From a virus: DNA of 28,636 nt. The notes under the pieces were generated by a model. The model made no database searches and was not told the origin of the DNA. It saw nothing but the letters and a program-made list of their open reading frames with translations. Of the stretch, positions 646 to 10,620 are shown in pieces; the first letter of the stretch is position 1; each line of letters starts with the position of its first letter. Location of the stretch: IMG/VR virus record IMGVR_UViG_3300021403_000045, positions 1 to 28,636 of that record; one strand, given 5' to 3'. The translations under genes and the position numbers were made by a program.

Positions 646-1365
646 CTAGGACCACAGGCGCTGAGCGGTCGTCTCCTCGGACTCTGGCTCTGGCTCGGGC
701 AGCGTCTCGGGCGCTGGCTCGATCTCGCCAGCTATGGCACGCGGCAGAGACTCACGGATGTCGCCGCCATCACCGGGACACTCATCACCCAAGCACGTCC
801 ATTTGGGACGCTGGCGGCGCGCGAACAGTTCCAGCCACGACTCCGGGTAGTGGCTTTCAACGTGCTCCTGAAACTTCTCCGGCTTCGCGGAGTGCTTGAG
901 ACGTAGGGCCTCGAAGGCGTTCTCGTTCTCGTCGCCCCCCAAGATGATGTTGCGCTCGTGCGTGCGGATCGCCGGGACTCCGGGGCTACGTGCCAGGAGG
1001 ATCGGATCGGCTGCTCCGCGATACCAGAACCCTGGTCCAAACGCGAGCTTGCCGTTCGAGGTGCGCTTGACCCAGTAGAGCGCAGTTACGTAGTTGAAGC
1101 CCCACGCCTTGATCAGGTCCAGGGCGGCTGGGATGAACGGGCCGGTGGTCCAGAGGAACAGGTAGCCGTGGACCGCCTTGCCGATGGGCAGGGCAGCGAG
1201 GGCCTCCAGTGACATCGGCTCGTAGTGGTGTTCGCGCTCGCTGGCGCTGGCGGTGTAGCCGTGCAGCTTGCCGTGGCTCGATGCGCGCTGGTACGGCCAC
1301 GGCGGGTCGATTACTACGGTGCGGTAACGGGGACGACCGTTTGTCGCCCCCGTTAGATCGCTCAC
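646..1365 (-). CDS. MT-A70 family DNA adenine-N6 methyltransferase
   Basis: This 239-residue protein carries the MT-A70 catalytic signature DPPW at residues 20-23, followed by aromatic residues, a central LFLWTT strand typical of the class, and a conserved HSAKPEKFQEHVE-type segment near residue 160. The family transfers a methyl group from S-adenosylmethionine to N6 of adenine. In phages such enzymes often act as orphan methyltransferases that protect DNA from host restriction; that role is inferred here. The start is GTG at 1365, overlapping the stop of the upstream GHKL ATPase gene as GTGA, which implies translational coupling. The last 40 or so residues are a Glu/Pro-rich tail unlike the catalytic core. 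No cognate restriction endonuclease is visible nearby. The target sequence cannot be read from the protein. Confidence 0.88.
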   Translation of the reverse strand: MSDLTGATNGRPRYRTVVIDPPWPYQRASSHGKLHGYTASASEREHHYEPMSLEALAALPIGKAVHGYLFLWTTGPFIPAALDLIKAWGFNYVTALYWVKRTSNGKLAFGPGFWYRGAADPILLARSPGVPAIRTHERNIILGGDENENAFEALRLKHSAKPEKFQEHVESHYPESWLELFARRQRPKWTCLGDECPGDGGDIRESLPRAIAGEIEPAPETLPEPEPESEETTAQRLWS

Positions 1366-3485
1366 GCTGCTGCTTCCTCCACGTCCGCTTCCGCGATCTC
1401 CACCAGACCGTCAAGGACACGCCGCTCGTGATCCCACAGCCCGAGCAGGTACCCGGTCAGCGCCGGGGGCGAGAAGATCGTCTCTCGATCTTTGCGGCTG
1501 ACGGCTAGCTCACGGTTGCGGCACTCAGCCAGTCGGTGACCGAGCTTCGTCAGTGCCGAGCGCTCCAGCACCTCACGGAGCCTGCGCTGGACCTGGGTCG
1601 GTGTTTGCGTCTGCTCGCACAGCTCCGCATACCACTGCTGTACCCACCAGTGGTGCCAGTTGAGTTTCAGCATGCCACGCTGGTCATTCGCGTCGCTTGG
1701 CTCGTCGTAAATGACTCCCCAGGTTTTCAGGTCCTCCGGCCAGTCCTCGGCGTTCTCCACCCACCTGCACATCGGGTGCTTCGGCCTCTTGTCGGCAACC
1801 TTGTCGGTCTGCTTGCGCTTGCGCGTGATCGTTTGCTTCTTCTCACCGACTTGCTTACCGCCGCCCTTTTGCGGCGGCTTGCGCGTCGTCTCGCCGTCGC
1901 CTGGCGGGTGAGTCTCGCCGGGGTTGACAATGGGGCCACGCTTGCCGTTCCGTTCCCCCGGCTCGGTCCCTGTACCGGTGACCACGGGTACCGTCTCCGT
2001 GATCGTCTCCGTAACCGTGCGCGTTTTCGTCTTCTTGAACCTGGCCTCGATCTTCTCCCACCAGGAGTTGATACGCCGATCATTGAAGGAAACGGACGTG
2101 TCCTGCGCGTCGCGAGCGCGAATCCACTCGACCAGCTTTGGCGGCATGTTCTTGCGGAACGCTGCGGCCATCTCGTGCCACGGCAGGTCGATGTTGTTGC
2201 CGAAGCGGTCCACCGCGAACACGTCCTTGCGGCCACTGCCAACCCATACGCTGCCCTGTGATTGGCCACCGAACTTGAGCGGGATGAGACGTACCCACAC
2301 GCTTTCACGCGCTGCCGCATGTGACATTCCGAACTGTCCGTATGGATCGCCCTGCAACTTTGGGTAAATCTCGTCGTGGAAGTCGAGAAAGATGACGCCC
2401 TTGCGCCGTGCCTGGAAGTTCAGCTTGCGGGCCTGCACGCCCTCGGGCAGCGTTCGGATGTAGACCTCTGCCTTGAACGGGACAACGCAGTCAGGGTACG
2501 TCTTGGAGTCCTGCTCGATTGTCGCCAGTGTGTCGTCGGCGTCACCCTCGTTTGTGCTGGACATCTTGTGGATGATCTCGCGTAGGCCGTCAATCCGACG
2601 GTAACCCCACTGTTGCGAGCCGCCGAAAGTCACCGCCGTCTCACCGGGCTTGAAGCCGTAGGACTGGAAGTCGAACTGGAAGTTGCCCCCAGGAACGCCC
2701 CAGTACAGCTCCATATCTTCCGGGAACTCCCAGAAGCGCGCGTTCAGATATTGGCCAAACGCCCACCGGGAGTAGACCCACTCGTTCTTCGCCGGGTCGA
2801 ATATCTGCTGTGTCGAGTAGTAGGTGGAGTCCGTCAGTGTTTTTCCGCACTCCACAATGACGGTGGCACTCTCGGGCACCTGCCGGTTGAACTTCGGGTT
2901 ATCGAACGCGGACTCCCACACTTCAAGGATGTTGAGGCCATCAACCACCAGGGCGGGCGTGACCTCAATGCACGCAACGGATTCGGCCAGATAGTCCTCG
3001 CCGTCCTCGTCCTCCTCGATGATCTCGAAGCTGCGCAGACCCCCCTGGTCGTCCTGCACGTCCCATACGGAAAGGTAGGGCGCGTCCTGCCCGGCTGCTT
3101 TGGAGATGATGTAGAGGCCCGCCGGGTTGTCCATCCCGTTCGCCAGGATCAGTCCCTGGCCGTGGTTGCCTGCGAAGACCTCGGTCGGTTTGCTCGACAT
3201 GCCGTGGTTGACCAGCAGGCTCACCATGTCGTTGTGGTGCATCCCTGACGAGGAATCGACATGCACGCGACGGAACACGGGATTGCCGTATTCGTCCCGT
3301 AGGGTCCTGGCTCCCACCTTCTCAACGTCGGCGACGTAAACCGACGTGCGCCCCAGCACGCGGTGCTCGATGCTGTTGACAACCGGTTCGCGCTTGCCCT
3401 GCTCGGGTTCGAGCGCCGCGTTGTCGCGCATCATTGTGCGCGTTTGGTCCCGTGGGTCTGTTCGTACAGCGAACTCTCTGCTCAT
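1362..3485 (-). CDS. GHKL-fold ATPase, possible B-type partner of a type IIB topoisomerase
   Basis: This 707-residue protein starts at ATG 3485, eight bases after AAGGAG; an upstream in-frame ATG at 3527 lies in the promoter cassette. Motifs of the GHKL (gyrase/Hsp90/histidine kinase/MutL) ATPase fold are visible: a possible N-box around N37-SIE, a G1-like D77-SSSGM, and a G2-like G106-NHGQG, followed by NPAGLYIISK. This order matches phage Hsp90-like and MORC-like ATPases. A middle region carries mixed alpha/beta segments. Residues of about 500-590 are a Thr/Glu-rich then Lys/Arg-rich linker, and a Trp-rich C-terminal domain follows. It is co-transcribed with the MT-A70 methyltransferase, and a separate TOPRIM/Spo11-like protein is encoded at 6894-7904. 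An ATPase subunit acting on DNA is a reasonable inference; the N-box and exact relationship need a profile search. Confidence 0.72.
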   Translation of the reverse strand: MSREFAVRTDPRDQTRTMMRDNAALEPEQGKREPVVNSIEHRVLGRTSVYVADVEKVGARTLRDEYGNPVFRRVHVDSSSGMHHNDMVSLLVNHGMSSKPTEVFAGNHGQGLILANGMDNPAGLYIISKAAGQDAPYLSVWDVQDDQGGLRSFEIIEEDEDGEDYLAESVACIEVTPALVVDGLNILEVWESAFDNPKFNRQVPESATVIVECGKTLTDSTYYSTQQIFDPAKNEWVYSRWAFGQYLNARFWEFPEDMELYWGVPGGNFQFDFQSYGFKPGETAVTFGGSQQWGYRRIDGLREIIHKMSSTNEGDADDTLATIEQDSKTYPDCVVPFKAEVYIRTLPEGVQARKLNFQARRKGVIFLDFHDEIYPKLQGDPYGQFGMSHAAARESVWVRLIPLKFGGQSQGSVWVGSGRKDVFAVDRFGNNIDLPWHEMAAAFRKNMPPKLVEWIRARDAQDTSVSFNDRRINSWWEKIEARFKKTKTRTVTETITETVPVVTGTGTEPGERNGKRGPIVNPGETHPPGDGETTRKPPQKGGGKQVGEKKQTITRKRKQTDKVADKRPKHPMCRWVENAEDWPEDLKTWGVIYDEPSDANDQRGMLKLNWHHWWVQQWYAELCEQTQTPTQVQRRLREVLERSALTKLGHRLAECRNRELAVSRKDRETIFSPPALTGYLLGLWDHERRVLDGLVEIAEADVEEAAA

Positions 3486-3490
3486 CACTT

Positions 3491-3536
3491 CTCCTTGGTC
3501 GGGTTTGTGTAACCAAGGATAGCACAAGATAGAGGC
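3491..3536 (-). promoter_or_regulatory. Promoter-operator cassette of the GHKL ATPase operon
   Basis: On the minus strand: element GCCTCTATCTTGTGC (3522-3536), -10 box TATCCT (3516-3521) with an extended TGC just before it, and leader motif CCGACCAAGGAG (3491-3502) ahead of ATG 3485. CCTTGGT at the -10/start region can pair with ACCAAGG of the leader motif. This is the only copy with A in place of the usual G in ACCGAGG, and the pairing base upstream is changed accordingly. Confidence 0.7.
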
Positions 3537-3569
3537 TTATGCGATCCGGCCAAGGTAGCGAGGCGTGAG

Positions 3570-5654
3570 CTAGGCCGAGTGCCCGTTGCCGTTGGCGGAG
3601 GCTGAGGCTGAGGCTGCGACGAGCATCTCGTCCACCAGATCGCCGATCTCCTCGTCCCACATTCCCATCAGGCGACCCATGCGCTGCTCCTCGGACTCGT
3701 CCTCCGCCGCTTCGTACACCTGCCCCTGGTTGTCCTGGTAGTTGGAGGAGAACCCCTGCGCGCCGTACGGGTTCTGGTTGTCCGGGCCTTCGCCTGGTGG
3801 CTGCTCCCCGGCGACGTACTCGCCGCCACCGAACGGGTTCGGACCGGGTGGAATCAACGGCGGCTGCCCACCACCTGGTTGGGAGTTGCCAGCGCCAGCT
3901 TGGGCCATGCTCGCGGCGACCATCGGATCGACGTAGCCCTCGGGGAGGATGCGCTCGACGGCGGCGGCGGGGTCGGCCACGTCGAGCCCCTGGCCGAGCG
4001 CGATGCCAAGCAGCGCGCGGCTGAGTTCGAGGTTCGTGTTGTTCGGATCGAACGTGCGGGCAAGGTTCGCGATGCTGGTGATCAGGTCGGCCATCGCGCG
4101 CTTGAGCGGGTTCGGCATCGCAAACTCGTAGCCAAGGTCGCGCTCGGTTTGTTTCTCGTCCTGCGTCTGGCCGCTGTAAGCCTCTGTCAGCTCCTCCGAT
4201 CCTGTTCCGGACGTGGGGTCCGTCATCGCCAGCGGAGGCTCCTGCTGCGCCGGAGCGGGCGGTGTGACGCCATCTCCGCCGGGGACCTGCTCCCCCGGTT
4301 TCTTTGACTTCAGCAGCGCGCGTTCTTCCTCGGTCAGCTCGGTCGGTAGGCGTCCGGAGTCCACGGCGCGTTGGATCACCCTGTCGGTGAACGTGCGGAA
4401 CAGTCCCTCGAACAGTTCCTGGAACGCCTCGACCTTCTTGATCACCGGCAGCTCCAGTGACGCGGCGGTCGCGAGGTTCGCGTTGGACTGGTCACCGAGG
4501 TAGTGCTGCGGCCACGTCGCCGAGCTGATTTGGGAGCGGATCATCTGCGCGTCCTGCTGTGCTGCTGCTGCCTGGGTTGGGACGGAGAACGGTTCGGTGG
4601 TGATCCCCTCGGACTCGTAGAGCATCGACGCTGGGCGTGGGCCGGGGAGCACCACTCCAGCGGTCGGGTCGTCCATCGAGGTCGCGGCGAGGCTGGAGGT
4701 GCGCGAGATCGCTTTCGCGGCCATCTTCGCGACCTGCTGCGGGGAGCCCTTGACGGTGCGGCGCATGATGAACGCTGCCGCTGCCTGGGTCATGTCCACC
4801 CGCGCGGCCATGAAGTCGTTCAGCGCGGCCATCCACTTCACAATCCGGCGCATCGCGGGGATGCCGAACACCTGCTCGGAGCCCTTGTTCATCGCGATGT
4901 GGTAGACGAGCCCATCGCCGAGCTTCTCCGCCGGGCAGGTCGGATCGTCGGTCATGAGCTTGCCGGTCGCGGAGTCGGTCGCGGCGAGCGACTGGTAATA
5001 CTGCACGACGGGGTTGCCGGACTGTTGCAACGGAACCGACGTTTTCAGGCTCACGCGGTCCATCGTGTAGTCCCACTGGTAGTCGCGGCGACGGGCGACG
5101 TAGTACAGGACACGCAGCCGGTTTTGGGAGTCGCGTACCGCGTCCTCCACGAGGTCGTGGTTCAGGATGCCGAGCTTGACCTTCCCGTCGTCCCCCTCGA
5201 AGAACAGGATGAACAGGTTGCTCTGGAGCACAAGGTCGGTGCAGAGCGCGACCTGCGCGGGGAACGTGGTCAGCGCCGCCTGGTTGTCCGGATCGGCCCA
5301 CGCTTCGTCTATGACCTCCTGCACCTTGTCGTCGGCAGCCTTGGGTTTCGGGACGCCGCGTCCAAAGATGAACTGGCAGGACAGGTCCACGTTCGCTCCG
5401 GCCACCGGGTCTTGAATCCAGACCATCCGGGCTTGCGCGGCCATCTTGCGACGCTCGATGGCTTTGACCTCCTGCGGCTGACCGCCCATCTGATCGAGGA
5501 CGTAATAGCCGAGCATGTCCAGCTCTTTCTGCATCGCCCGGCGTTCCACGTCCGACGCTTCAAGCAGTTGGAGCCGGTCTTGGTCGATGACCGTTTTGCC
5601 GGTGCGGTCCTCAACAGCTTCTTGGAGCCGTCCGATCAGCCCGTCACGTGGCAT
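3570..5654 (-). CDS. Phage portal protein
   Basis: This 694-residue protein has the size and character of a tailed-phage portal: the dodecameric ring at the capsid vertex through which DNA is packaged and to which the tail attaches. Supporting features are an N-terminal helical region, a segment near residues 160-190 with LVLQSNLFILFFEGDDGKV, the pattern seen in many siphovirus portals, a central region with an ATSMDDPTAG loop, and a long Pro/Gly/Gln-rich C-terminal tail ending in Ala/Ser/Gly repeats. The start at ATG 5654 overlaps the end of the preceding small gene by 11 bases. It is the last gene of the operon that begins at 8215 or further upstream. It lies about 6.7 kb downstream of the large terminase, an unusually wide separation, with small unknown genes and a TOPRIM protein in between. 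No protease, scaffold or capsid gene follows in this window. Confidence 0.8.
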   Translation of the reverse strand: MPRDGLIGRLQEAVEDRTGKTVIDQDRLQLLEASDVERRAMQKELDMLGYYVLDQMGGQPQEVKAIERRKMAAQARMVWIQDPVAGANVDLSCQFIFGRGVPKPKAADDKVQEVIDEAWADPDNQAALTTFPAQVALCTDLVLQSNLFILFFEGDDGKVKLGILNHDLVEDAVRDSQNRLRVLYYVARRRDYQWDYTMDRVSLKTSVPLQQSGNPVVQYYQSLAATDSATGKLMTDDPTCPAEKLGDGLVYHIAMNKGSEQVFGIPAMRRIVKWMAALNDFMAARVDMTQAAAAFIMRRTVKGSPQQVAKMAAKAISRTSSLAATSMDDPTAGVVLPGPRPASMLYESEGITTEPFSVPTQAAAAQQDAQMIRSQISSATWPQHYLGDQSNANLATAASLELPVIKKVEAFQELFEGLFRTFTDRVIQRAVDSGRLPTELTEEERALLKSKKPGEQVPGGDGVTPPAPAQQEPPLAMTDPTSGTGSEELTEAYSGQTQDEKQTERDLGYEFAMPNPLKRAMADLITSIANLARTFDPNNTNLELSRALLGIALGQGLDVADPAAAVERILPEGYVDPMVAASMAQAGAGNSQPGGGQPPLIPPGPNPFGGGEYVAGEQPPGEGPDNQNPYGAQGFSSNYQDNQGQVYEAAEDESEEQRMGRLMGMWDEEIGDLVDEMLVAASASASANGNGHSA

Positions 5655-5838
5655 GTTTGGGCACCACGACCCGCCAGCCTTCGAGGTGTTTGCCGGGGAC
5701 GCATTCGATCTCGCCGTCGCGGGCGTCTTCGATCACGGCCTGTCCGCCTTCAGCGAGGTCGAGCACGTAAACGAGGGTCTGCTCATTGGTCAGGTACAGG
5801 CGAGGTTCTAGCGGTCGTGTTCGCGGTCCGACAGCCAC
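5644..5838 (-). CDS. Small protein of unknown function upstream of the portal gene
   Basis: A 64-residue protein starts at GTG 5838 with AGGAG about eight bases upstream. It overlaps the gene before it by 31 bases and the portal gene by 11, typical of tight phage packing. The sequence is mixed hydrophobic and acidic (LVYVLDLAEGGQAVIEDARDGEIECV) and may form a small beta domain. No family is recognised. It could be a capsid-assembly accessory because of its position, but nothing in the sequence proves that. Confidence 0.5.
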   Translation of the reverse strand: MAVGPRTRPLEPRLYLTNEQTLVYVLDLAEGGQAVIEDARDGEIECVPGKHLEGWRVVVPKHAT

Positions 5839-6185
5839 CGGTCGCGCTCCTGTGCGTCGAGTGCCATCGCGAGCCCCTGCTCACGCTCACGATCTTCGGG
5901 GTGTCCGGCGGTCAGGTCACCCCGGCGGTTCAGTAGCGGCCGGACTGTTCTGCTGGCCAGCAGCGCTTCGCGGTCGGCCCGCCAGGCTGGGCAGGACTGG
6001 TAGCCCTGGTCGTTGAAGCAGTACGCCGCGAGCGTCACGGGATCGTGGCGGCTGTCGATCACGTCGCTGGTGATTCGGCAAGCGCACCCCGTGCCCCCGG
6101 CTGCTTCTGCCACCAGGGAGGCTGCGGGACACGGGGGTTCGTTCGGACGGGGAACGACGATGCGCTCGTACTCCACGAGCCCCAC
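5808..6185 (-). CDS. Cysteine-containing hypothetical protein
   Basis: The frame gives 125 residues from GTG 6185; GTG 6176 (three codons later) is an equally good start because AAGGTGGGG lies just upstream. The N-terminal half holds PPCP, GCAC, YC and SCPAW, a spacing that could bind a metal ion or form disulfides. The C-terminal third is a charged helix rich in Arg, Glu and Asp. It sits between two unrelated small genes with a 34-base gap on its upstream side. No family is recognised. Confidence 0.5.
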   Translation of the reverse strand: MGLVEYERIVVPRPNEPPCPAASLVAEAAGGTGCACRITSDVIDSRHDPVTLAAYCFNDQGYQSCPAWRADREALLASRTVRPLLNRRGDLTAGHPEDREREQGLAMALDAQERDRWLSDREHDR

Positions 6186-6219
6186 CTTACCGCCGCTCCG
6201 GGCGTTCCCCGCAGGCGAG

Positions 6220-6477
6220 CTACTGGTAGCGGTGCAGCGCCTCGGCGGCGATCTCAGCGAACCAGCCGGGACCGCCCTCGTGGTCCTCTTTCATGATGCG
6301 CTCCAGCGCGACACGAAAGTGGTCACGCTCGACGGTGAGCTGGTCGATGCCGTCCGCAAGCCGTTCGGCGTCCATCAGCGACTCCCCACCGTCGCAGTAG
6401 GCGTGGGTGCCCTCCGGACCGTCGGCGTAGTGCCGAACTCGTGCCAGCACATCAGCGAGCGTCTCCGGTTCCCGCAT
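6220..6477 (-). CDS. Hypothetical helical protein
   Basis: An 85-residue, largely helical and acidic protein with no recognised family. ATG 6477 is chosen because it gives an 11-base gap after the preceding stop; GTG 6510 would add 11 residues and overlap the upstream gene. Neither start has a clear Shine-Dalgarno sequence. The middle (AERLADGIDQLTVERDHFRVALERIMKE, shown here only as a helical trait) has heptad-like spacing and may be a short coiled coil. It is part of the TOPRIM-portal operon. Confidence 0.5.
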   Translation of the reverse strand: MREPETLADVLARVRHYADGPEGTHAYCDGGESLMDAERLADGIDQLTVERDHFRVALERIMKEDHEGGPGWFAEIAAEALHRYQ

Positions 6478-6488
6478 GGGCAGAAACT

Positions 6489-6752
6489 CTACGTGGCTTC
6501 GGTTGCCCACTGGTCGTGCAGCTTCTCCAGCTCGCGGGGCGGGAGTTGGCGCACGTCACGACCATTGCTCTCGGCCTGTTCCTGTAGCCAGTCGAGGAAC
6601 GCTTGCGCGAGGTCCTCGGGCGAGTCGCCGTTCTCGGCACGGTGAAAGATGGGACCGAACGCCCAGTCGGTCACGCTGTCGAACAGGCAGGCGATTTGGC
6701 GTTCGTAGCCGTAGTCGCCCTGTTCGTGTCCCACCAGAATCCTCAGTCCCAT
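6489..6752 (-). CDS. Hypothetical acidic protein
   Basis: An 87-residue protein starts at ATG 6752, one base after the stop of the upstream gene (TGAGATG), with AAGGGGG as ribosome binding site inside the upstream gene. An earlier in-frame start at 6809 is rejected because it would bury the upstream gene. The N-terminus begins with a beta-like GLRILVGHEQGDYGYE segment, followed by aromatic and acidic helices. No family is recognised. It is translationally coupled within the TOPRIM-portal operon. Confidence 0.55.
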   Translation of the reverse strand: MGLRILVGHEQGDYGYERQIACLFDSVTDWAFGPIFHRAENGDSPEDLAQAFLDWLQEQAESNGRDVRQLPPRELEKLHDQWATEAT

Positions 6753-6753
6753 C

Positions 6754-6897
6754 TCAGGCCCCCTTGTCGATTTCGATGTTGTCGGCTCCGAGCGCCAGCA
6801 GCTCGCCAATGAGCCGTTCGTACTCCTCCTCCGACATGCCGGTCGCCACGTCTTCGGGTTCGTCAGGGTAGTAGTCGAAGGAGACGCGCACGGTCAT
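6754..6897 (-). CDS. Small acidic protein coupled to the TOPRIM gene
   Basis: A 47-residue protein starts at ATG 6897, overlapping the stop of the TOPRIM gene as ATGA. It begins MTVRVSFDYYPDEPEDV and is strongly acidic (net negative), with a predicted central helix. The ATGA coupling argues for co-expression with the TOPRIM protein. Whether the two proteins interact is unknown. Confidence 0.55.
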   Translation of the reverse strand: MTVRVSFDYYPDEPEDVATGMSEEEYERLIGELLALGADNIEIDKGA

Positions 6898-7904
6898 AGC
6901 GCGTCCCCGTTCAGGTCCTTGACGATCTCCGTCCACCGTTCGGACGCGAGACGCAGCAGCCGCTGTCCGTCCTCCTCACGTTCGCGTGCTGCCTCCCAGG
7001 CGTCCTCCTCGATCAGGCCCTCCACGTGCTCGCGCACGAGCGCTGAGAGCACGTCTGGTGGGAGCGCGTCCAGCTCCCAGCTTTCGTAGCCGTACTCCTC
7101 GACGTACCCTGCCGAGCGTGAGTCCGACAGCTTCGCGGGGTTCGGTGGCGGGTCGTACTCGGTGATCTGCGCCATCGTCAGCGCGATCCGGCGAACCTCG
7201 AAGCGGTCGAGCGCCTCGGTGATCCACTGGCCGATGGTCGCCTCCCGGTTCATGCTGCTCAGTTCTTTGAACCCTGGGTGCTGCTTGATCTTGTGGCGGG
7301 CGTAGTCGGAGCTGATGAACAGACGCAGGCGGTCTTCGATGTCGCGGGTCATGTCGATCCCGGACGGGTCGTGGTCGCCGAGGTGCAGGACGGTCACGTT
7401 CTTGCCGTCGATGATCGGGGTCAGCAGCCGCTGGCTGGCAGCCCACATCTCTGACTGGCTGGTGTAGCCACGGCAGGAGAAGTACGGCACGTCGAGTTCG
7501 TTGCAGACGCGGGTGATCACGCCCACGAGCGCGTCTTTCTCGATCCACACTTCCACGTAGTCGTTCTGCTGCTCCCACAGCGACACTTTGAAGCTGCGGG
7601 CGGTCGCTTCGATGATGTTCGCCGGATCGTCCCAGTGGGTGATCGAGCGGACGTTGCGGGTGCGATCCACGATGTGATCCCAGTCGATCCGACCAGCCAG
7701 CCGGGCGTCGTTGACAATCGACCCGAGCCGCTTGTAGGACCGCTCGTTGTTCGGGATCAGATCCCTCGAAACGAACTGGTAGTAGAGCTGTCGGAGTGTC
7801 AGGTCGTAGCCCTGCTGCTCGTAGTCAACGAGGATCTGGTTGGCCTGGCGGATCGTTTCCAGTGTCTCGGCGCTGAAGCGTTTGGTGTCGTAGGCGATCC
7901 TCAC
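6894..7904 (-). CDS. TOPRIM/Spo11-like protein, candidate Topo mini-A type
   Basis: This 336-residue protein starts at GTG 7904, overlapping the upstream stop as GTGA; the longer frame upstream is only the shadow of another gene. Residues 36-60 (LTLRQLYYQFVSR, then PNNERSYKRL) form a winged-helix segment with an R-x-x-Y-Y pattern like the catalytic tyrosine region of Topo VI A/Spo11; Y41 or Y42 is the candidate. A TOPRIM domain follows: E122 in VEVWIEKDAL and the D177-x-D179 pair in HLGDHDPSGIDM. These are the metal-binding residues of type IIB topoisomerase A subunits. The length is close to that of an A subunit without its B partner, as in the Topo mini-A group of mobile elements. The only ATPase candidate in this window is the GHKL protein at 1362-3485. 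DNA cleavage or topoisomerase activity is inferred. Confidence 0.78.
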   Translation of the reverse strand: MRIAYDTKRFSAETLETIRQANQILVDYEQQGYDLTLRQLYYQFVSRDLIPNNERSYKRLGSIVNDARLAGRIDWDHIVDRTRNVRSITHWDDPANIIEATARSFKVSLWEQQNDYVEVWIEKDALVGVITRVCNELDVPYFSCRGYTSQSEMWAASQRLLTPIIDGKNVTVLHLGDHDPSGIDMTRDIEDRLRLFISSDYARHKIKQHPGFKELSSMNREATIGQWITEALDRFEVRRIALTMAQITEYDPPPNPAKLSDSRSAGYVEEYGYESWELDALPPDVLSALVREHVEGLIEEDAWEAAREREEDGQRLLRLASERWTEIVKDLNGDAL

Positions 7905-8215
7905 GAGGTCACGCCCCACGGACCGTTGCGGAAGCACGACGCGCGGTACGCAACCTCGCCGATCTCGTCGCAGTACACGTCGCGCTGCTCGCCCTTGATC
8001 CAGACCTTCGCTTTGCGCCTGAAGACGCGGCGGACGACGTAGGTGTCGTTCCAGTCGAGGTCCACAGTGACGCTGTAGCCAGCGCCGACGGGGAGGGTGA
8101 TCCCGGTCGCGCGGCGCACAATCCTGCCACCACTGATCGCGAGCAGGTTCATCCGCCCGATCTGCTGGATCGTTTGCTGAACGTCGCAGTCGCGGAACTC
8201 TTGGGTGGTGCTCAT
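7901..8215 (-). CDS. Conserved-looking phage protein of unknown function
   Basis: A 104-residue protein starts at ATG 8215 with GGAGAC six bases upstream in the leader motif. An in-frame start at 8254 lies upstream of the leader motif and is rejected. It contains QQIGRMNLLAISGGRI and a DTYVVRRVFRR strand, a pattern I recall from small phage proteins of unknown function in actinophages; I cannot name a family. It reads as a compact beta-rich domain. Its stop overlaps the GTG of the TOPRIM gene (GTGA), so the two are likely translated together. Confidence 0.65.
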   Translation of the reverse strand: MSTTQEFRDCDVQQTIQQIGRMNLLAISGGRIVRRATGITLPVGAGYSVTVDLDWNDTYVVRRVFRRKAKVWIKGEQRDVYCDEIGEVAYRASCFRNGPWGVTS

Positions 8216-8391
8216 CTTTGTCTCCTCGGTCGATGCGCAGCCTTTTGGCCGCACCCAAAGACTAGCACATATCGTGCGTCAGAGGTTTTCCAGACGTTCC
8301 ACGCCCAGATCGCAAACCCGCCTGCGACCAGGACCACGCAGAACGTGATCACGCCAAGCAGGACGTAGCCCATCACGACCACCGCGTCCAT
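8212..8391 (-). CDS. Small single-pass membrane protein (59 residues)
   Basis: An open frame of 59 codons from ATG 8391 ends at a TGA that overlaps the ATG of the next gene (ATGA). Residues 7-31 are a continuous hydrophobic stretch (GYVLLGVITFCVVLVAGGFAIWAW) that would span a membrane, followed by Lys/Arg-rich C-terminal residues. The start overlaps the end of the upstream gene by 19 bases. The 3' half also contains the promoter-operator cassette of the next operon, so part of the C-terminus may be constrained by DNA function. There is no strong Shine-Dalgarno sequence, so translation is likely coupled, if it occurs. Confidence 0.5.
   Translation of the reverse strand: MDAVVVMGYVLLGVITFCVVLVAGGFAIWAWNVWKTSDARYVLVFGCGQKAAHRPRRQR
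8222..8287 (-). promoter_or_regulatory. Promoter-operator cassette of the TOPRIM-portal operon
   Basis: On the minus strand: GCACGATATGTGC (8265-8277, near palindrome), -10 box TAGTCT (8259-8264) with TGC before it, a possible GCGGCC-AAAA-GGCTGC hairpin, and leader CGACCGAGGAG (8222-8232). The -35 position (8282-8287) is poor. The cassette lies inside the 3' part of the 59-residue membrane protein frame. Confidence 0.65.
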
Positions 8392-10570: not shown

Positions 10571-10620
10571 TTCCTCGGTCGGTTTTGGCTAAGCGTAGCA
10601 CAGATCGTGCGCTACGCCTA
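10571..10620 (-). promoter_or_regulatory. Promoter-operator cassette of the zinc-ribbon operon
   Basis: On the minus strand: -35 TAGGCG (10615-10620), 17-base spacer holding GCACGATCTGTGC (10598-10610), -10 TACGCT (10592-10597) with TGC before it, and leader CCGACCGAGGAA (10571-10582). Confidence 0.72.

Follow-up and report, generated by a model that had tools for sequence, protein, structure and literature searches.

Topo Mini-A proteins are truncated homologues of Topo VI-A and Spo11 encoded by phages and archaeal viruses, with the protein of Pseudomonas phage NP1 as the exemplar (PMC7614492, PMC8185306), and in the literature covered here no biochemistry, activity or partner is described for Mini-A itself. 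In Topo VI, the stalk and hairpin of Top6B bind the winged helix of Top6A (PMC13040014), while the 5Y-CAP-like domain of MksG, a TOPRIM nuclease, is devoid of a candidate tyrosine (PMC10123090). Phage rIIA proteins, in turn, combine a GHKL domain with a variable C-terminus, a layout described as a counter-defence system that is poorly understood (PMC7824862).

The window analysed here, meaning the whole stretch of DNA under study, is a linear, GC-rich IMG/VR fragment of 28.6 kb, in which Pfam and PHROG searches identified terminase (terL), portal, primase, exonuclease and RecT genes. An earlier note, made from the letters of this DNA, had proposed that a Mini-A-like protein and a protein with GHKL motifs might constitute the two subunits of a split type IIB topoisomerase. 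Both reading frames were confirmed where the note had drawn them, on one (minus) strand with the portal gene between them (Table 1). The GC3 values of the two genes (0.80 and 0.87) are coding-like, as in the other genes, and a strong Shine-Dalgarno sequence precedes the ATG of the GHKL gene. The small gene upstream of Mini-A likely starts at the ATG at 8215 behind GAGGAG, its reading frame being open from 8254. As detailed below, we consider it probable that the window carries a stand-alone Mini-A and an unrelated, orphan GHKL-MT-A70 accessory cassette, which are near each other by position only.

Table 1. Positions of genes, catalytic codons and motifs in the window that bear on the Mini-A and GHKL proteins
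Feature	Position	Strand	Remark
MT-A70 DNA adenine methyltransferase gene	646..1365	-	Pfam MT-A70 E 2.4e-19; PHROG E 6e-45
GHKL-motif protein gene, orphan	1362..3485	-	707 aa; motif test, no homologue found
GHKL G2 box, G106-x2-G109-x-G111	3153..3170	-	sequence motif
GHKL G1 box, D77-SSS-G81-M82	3240..3257	-	middle glycine of DxGxG is serine
GHKL N box, E33-x3-N37	3375..3389	-	sequence motif
Promoter- or operator-like motif TGTGCTATCCT before GHKL gene	3516..3526	-	motif search
Portal gene, between GHKL and Mini-A genes	3570..5654	-	PHROG portal E 6.3e-23; 69-90% identity in nearest relatives
Topo Mini-A gene	6894..7904	-	336 aa; GTG start overlaps stop of upstream gene
Codons of D177-H178-D179, TOPRIM DxD	7368..7376	-	D177 and D179 invariant in 74 sequences
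Codon of E122, TOPRIM glutamate	7539..7541	-	invariant in 74 sequences
Codon of Y42, likely catalytic tyrosine	7779..7781	-	invariant in 15- and 74-sequence alignments
Small gene directly upstream of Mini-A	7901..8215	-	GTGA overlap with Mini-A; homologues in relatives L004 and L019
Promoter- or operator-like motif TGTGCTAGTCT before small gene/Mini-A pair	8259..8269	-	one of 8 window copies

Judged by its sequence, the putative TOPRIM protein is a genuine Topo Mini-A, ordinary and well conserved, and the family assignment made in the earlier note holds. The protein matched PHROG phrog_6247 ('DNA topoisomerase') with an E value of 2.7e-111, shares about 43% identity over 87% with the Mini-A of phage NP1, and resembles NP1-type proteins also in its short size, its Y/E/DxD residues and its being phage-encoded. 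Relatives were found by tblastn in 70 phage records, and a search of viral contigs recovered at least 569 viral stretches that encode them. What sets the window protein apart is that about 35 extra residues (about 198-233) are inserted between the TOPRIM elements, a feature found in a 15-sequence alignment only in near relatives besides the window protein itself.

The catalytic residues were examined across 74 Mini-A homologues, in which Y42, E122, D177 and D179 are invariant; the three acidic TOPRIM residues stand where they had been claimed to be. Both tyrosines that the earlier note had placed in a winged-helix segment are present as well, but only Y42 is retained throughout, whereas Y41 is replaced by phenylalanine in the close relatives L002 and L003 in the 15-sequence alignment. 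Y41 was therefore discarded as the nucleophile, and Y42 is the likely one. A loss of the tyrosine among homologues, which the earlier note had named as an outcome that would refute its proposal, did not occur. The AF2 model of Mini-A reached a pLDDT of 91.9. Foldseek alone returned no match to it at E 0.001 or better, and VIA-align, run on the candidates proposed by Foldseek, matched its TOPRIM part to MksG (8b7f, Z 11.0), Topo VI-A (Z 10.6), JetD (7til, Z 10.3) and Spo11 (Z 8.5). The predicted TOPRIM domain accordingly fits the JetD/MksG nucleases of Wadjet/MksBEFG systems; unlike MksG, however, Mini-A has an invariant tyrosine before the TOPRIM domain, and none of the window proteins that were searched could be recognised as SMC-type. 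The combination of TOPRIM and catalytic tyrosine is shared with the A part of Topo VI and Topo VIII, and by analogy with the family Mini-A would be expected to cleave DNA.

The second protein carries all three GHKL motif blocks, of which one is degenerate, reading DSSSG where DxGxG is expected. The motifs D77-SSSGM and G106-NHGQG reported previously are both present, and the protein also has a lysine in an SSK motif (SSK99), which reads SSK as in rIIA proteins. The ordered pattern E-x3-N ... D-x3-G[MILV] ... [ST]xK ... GxxGxG arose in 0.015% of shuffles of the protein. It was matched, among 2098 ORFs of at least 200 aa from the flanks of Mini-A genes and from comparison loci (about 1.5 Mb), only by the window protein and by six phage rIIA proteins that had been fetched as GHKL comparators. 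Since the ordered motif is rare in shuffles and specific among these ORFs, we regard the GHKL call as sound, with one box degenerate, and the protein as a candidate ATP binder. It is at the same time an orphan, with no match in Pfam, PHROG, NCBIfam or PDB and no relative in any collection searched, whether phages (up to E 10) and plasmids were queried with tblastn, viral and genome contigs were scanned for peptide patterns, or the SSK/GxHGQG core was sought as degenerate DNA. Single-sequence AlphaFold yielded a barely informative model (pLDDT 35) with helices at 602-706.

The stop of the GHKL gene overlaps the GTG start of the MT-A70 gene by 4 nt (1362/1365). In the nearest relatives of the window, terL, Mini-A and portal are retained with 64-90% identity, but the GHKL gene was not found where the closest relatives were searched (whole records behind L002-L005 and L019, and flanking loci), and the MT-A70 gene is absent from 6 related records. 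Because the two genes overlap and are both absent from relatives, they resemble an accessory cassette that follows the portal. The GHKL protein is probably a lineage-specific accessory protein, encoded together with MT-A70 in a two-gene cassette behind the portal, whose function would be related to host conflict or DNA modification and whose layout would roughly resemble that of rIIA. The region behind the portal in relatives was found to hold a collagen-like repeat protein of 595 aa directly behind the portal (L004:14630-16417), multi-domain proteins of 2006 and 1312 aa with repeated 'LHPRGRGGKWI' segments (L005:12261-18281 and L017:10075-14013, respectively), and, behind the portal of a close relative, a 237-aa protein (L017:8885-9598) whose glycine-rich C-terminal motif GIGATRSQGFGAF recalls RAMP/Cas7-type folds.

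Two tentative explanations of the GHKL protein itself deserve to be weighed. On the one hand, the GHKL and MT-A70 proteins might work as one ATP-dependent module for DNA modification or anti-restriction, with the ATPase helping the methyltransferase to reach or load on DNA. This possibility, which we advance with caution, is favoured by the 4-nt overlap of the genes, by a promoter-like motif of their own and by the fact that relatives which have the rest of this genome region in common lack both; nevertheless, the pair has been seen only once, and in none of 11 viral loci with distant MT-A70 relatives did the vicinity contain an ORF with the GHKL pattern or one convincingly related to the GHKL protein.

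On the other hand, the protein could be a very divergent member of the rIIA type, with an N-terminal GHKL ATPase, a C-terminal part that varies, and a role in host conflict or counter-defence, which we hold to be possible though somewhat doubtful. Motif order is the same as in the six phage rIIA proteins and motif spacing is similar, as is the length (707 vs 725 aa), and phages very commonly encode relatives of rIIA (2866 records). In a single hhalign comparison, residues 30-159 aligned to the GHKL domain of rIIA so that the motif blocks fell nearly in register (E 0.0084), but the hhalign probability against the six rIIA proteins was just 4.8%, and no significant sequence match, including to a PHROG rIIA family, was obtained. 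The Pfam profile HATPase_c_3 (PF13589) picks up all but one of the six rIIA proteins (E <= 0.00017) but not the GHKL protein, which is therefore not simply an rIIA. The neighbourhood differs as well, as rIIB follows rIIA in four loci (L098-L101), whereas the GHKL gene is followed by MT-A70, which it overlaps.

The proposal that the GHKL protein serves as a B-type subunit, binding Mini-A and giving ATP-driven strand passage or controlled cleavage, appears, by contrast, very improbable. Both genes do occur in one fragment and on one strand, all GHKL motif blocks are present together with the rIIA-like SSK lysine, as motif blocks would be in the B part of Topo VI or Topo VIII, and the helices at 602-706 of the pLDDT 35 model could superficially recall the stalk and hairpin of Top6B. 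In contrast to Topo VI and Topo VIII, however, the genes are non-adjacent, the G1 box is degenerate, and neither an H2TH nor a transducer domain was detectable by Pfam at E 1 in this orphan protein of low model confidence. The GHKL gene is moreover linked by overlap to MT-A70, with no such link to Mini-A.

Co-occurrence of the two genes across phages, the check that the earlier note had called for, was not observed, as far as it was measurable, in the nearest relatives or in 50 Mini-A phage records, which speaks against this proposal. The GHKL protein occurred in 0 of these 50 records, an absence that, like the others, is not proof because the window and IMG/VR records may be fragments. HATPase_c_3 was found in one of the 50, a 242-kb record, in a count that could miss GHKL proteins as divergent as that of the window; because Pfam does not see the latter, other divergent B-like proteins could likewise be missed, for which the motif scan of the flanks makes up only partly. 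The 242-kb record (L072) encodes a 518-aa HATPase protein (L094:358-1914) that has no PHROG match and is not a recognised rIIA. Taken as a sequence comparison, these searches leave the split-topoisomerase proposal without comparative support. A variant in which the Mini-A of this particular phage has recruited the GHKL protein as its lineage-specific B-like subunit seems to us just as improbable, although, if true, it would be the first case in which an ATPase partner is assigned to a Mini-A.

The two genes had also been described as standing behind the same promoter cassette. A common motif, TGTGCTANNCT, indeed precedes the GHKL gene and the small gene upstream of Mini-A, but with one mismatch allowed it has 8 copies in the window against 2.4 expected. 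Because of these 8 copies it is more likely a promoter or operator used generally by the phage, and a common promoter tying GHKL to Mini-A was thus rejected. Separately, an imperfect palindrome, CGCACGATNTGTGCTA, lies at 8262-8281 and 10595-10614 with further copies, several of them before genes; it has 8 sites at up to 3 mismatches against 0.8 expected and may represent a repeated phage operator or promoter.

We return to the reading of a stand-alone Mini-A next to an unrelated GHKL-MT-A70 cassette. Mini-A lies among replication and recombination genes in several annotated phages: in NP1 its neighbours include primase, ligase, RNase H, ThyX, Sak4 and a Cas4-type exonuclease, in RDJL it is near a DNA polymerase, and in Delta near ThyX. 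Among 93 Mini-A loci in viral contigs, the commonest recurring neighbour (9 loci) is a 603-aa protein with a Walker-A-like motif, a putative helicase, and the recurring neighbours listed include no GHKL family. We propose that Mini-A is probably a stand-alone enzyme of the Topo VI-A/Spo11 type, likely a dimer, in which Y42 and a Mg-binding TOPRIM site (E122, D177 and D179) would serve to open phage DNA on both strands, and which would act in phage replication or recombination with no ATPase subunit of its own encoded by the phage.

Among phages, this relative of Topo VI-A and Spo11 is widespread, and a tempting candidate for the ATPase partner of Mini-A fails the co-occurrence test. This outcome suggests that Mini-A works by itself or together with host factors, while the orphan GHKL-MT-A70 pair offers a small lead on phage DNA modification.
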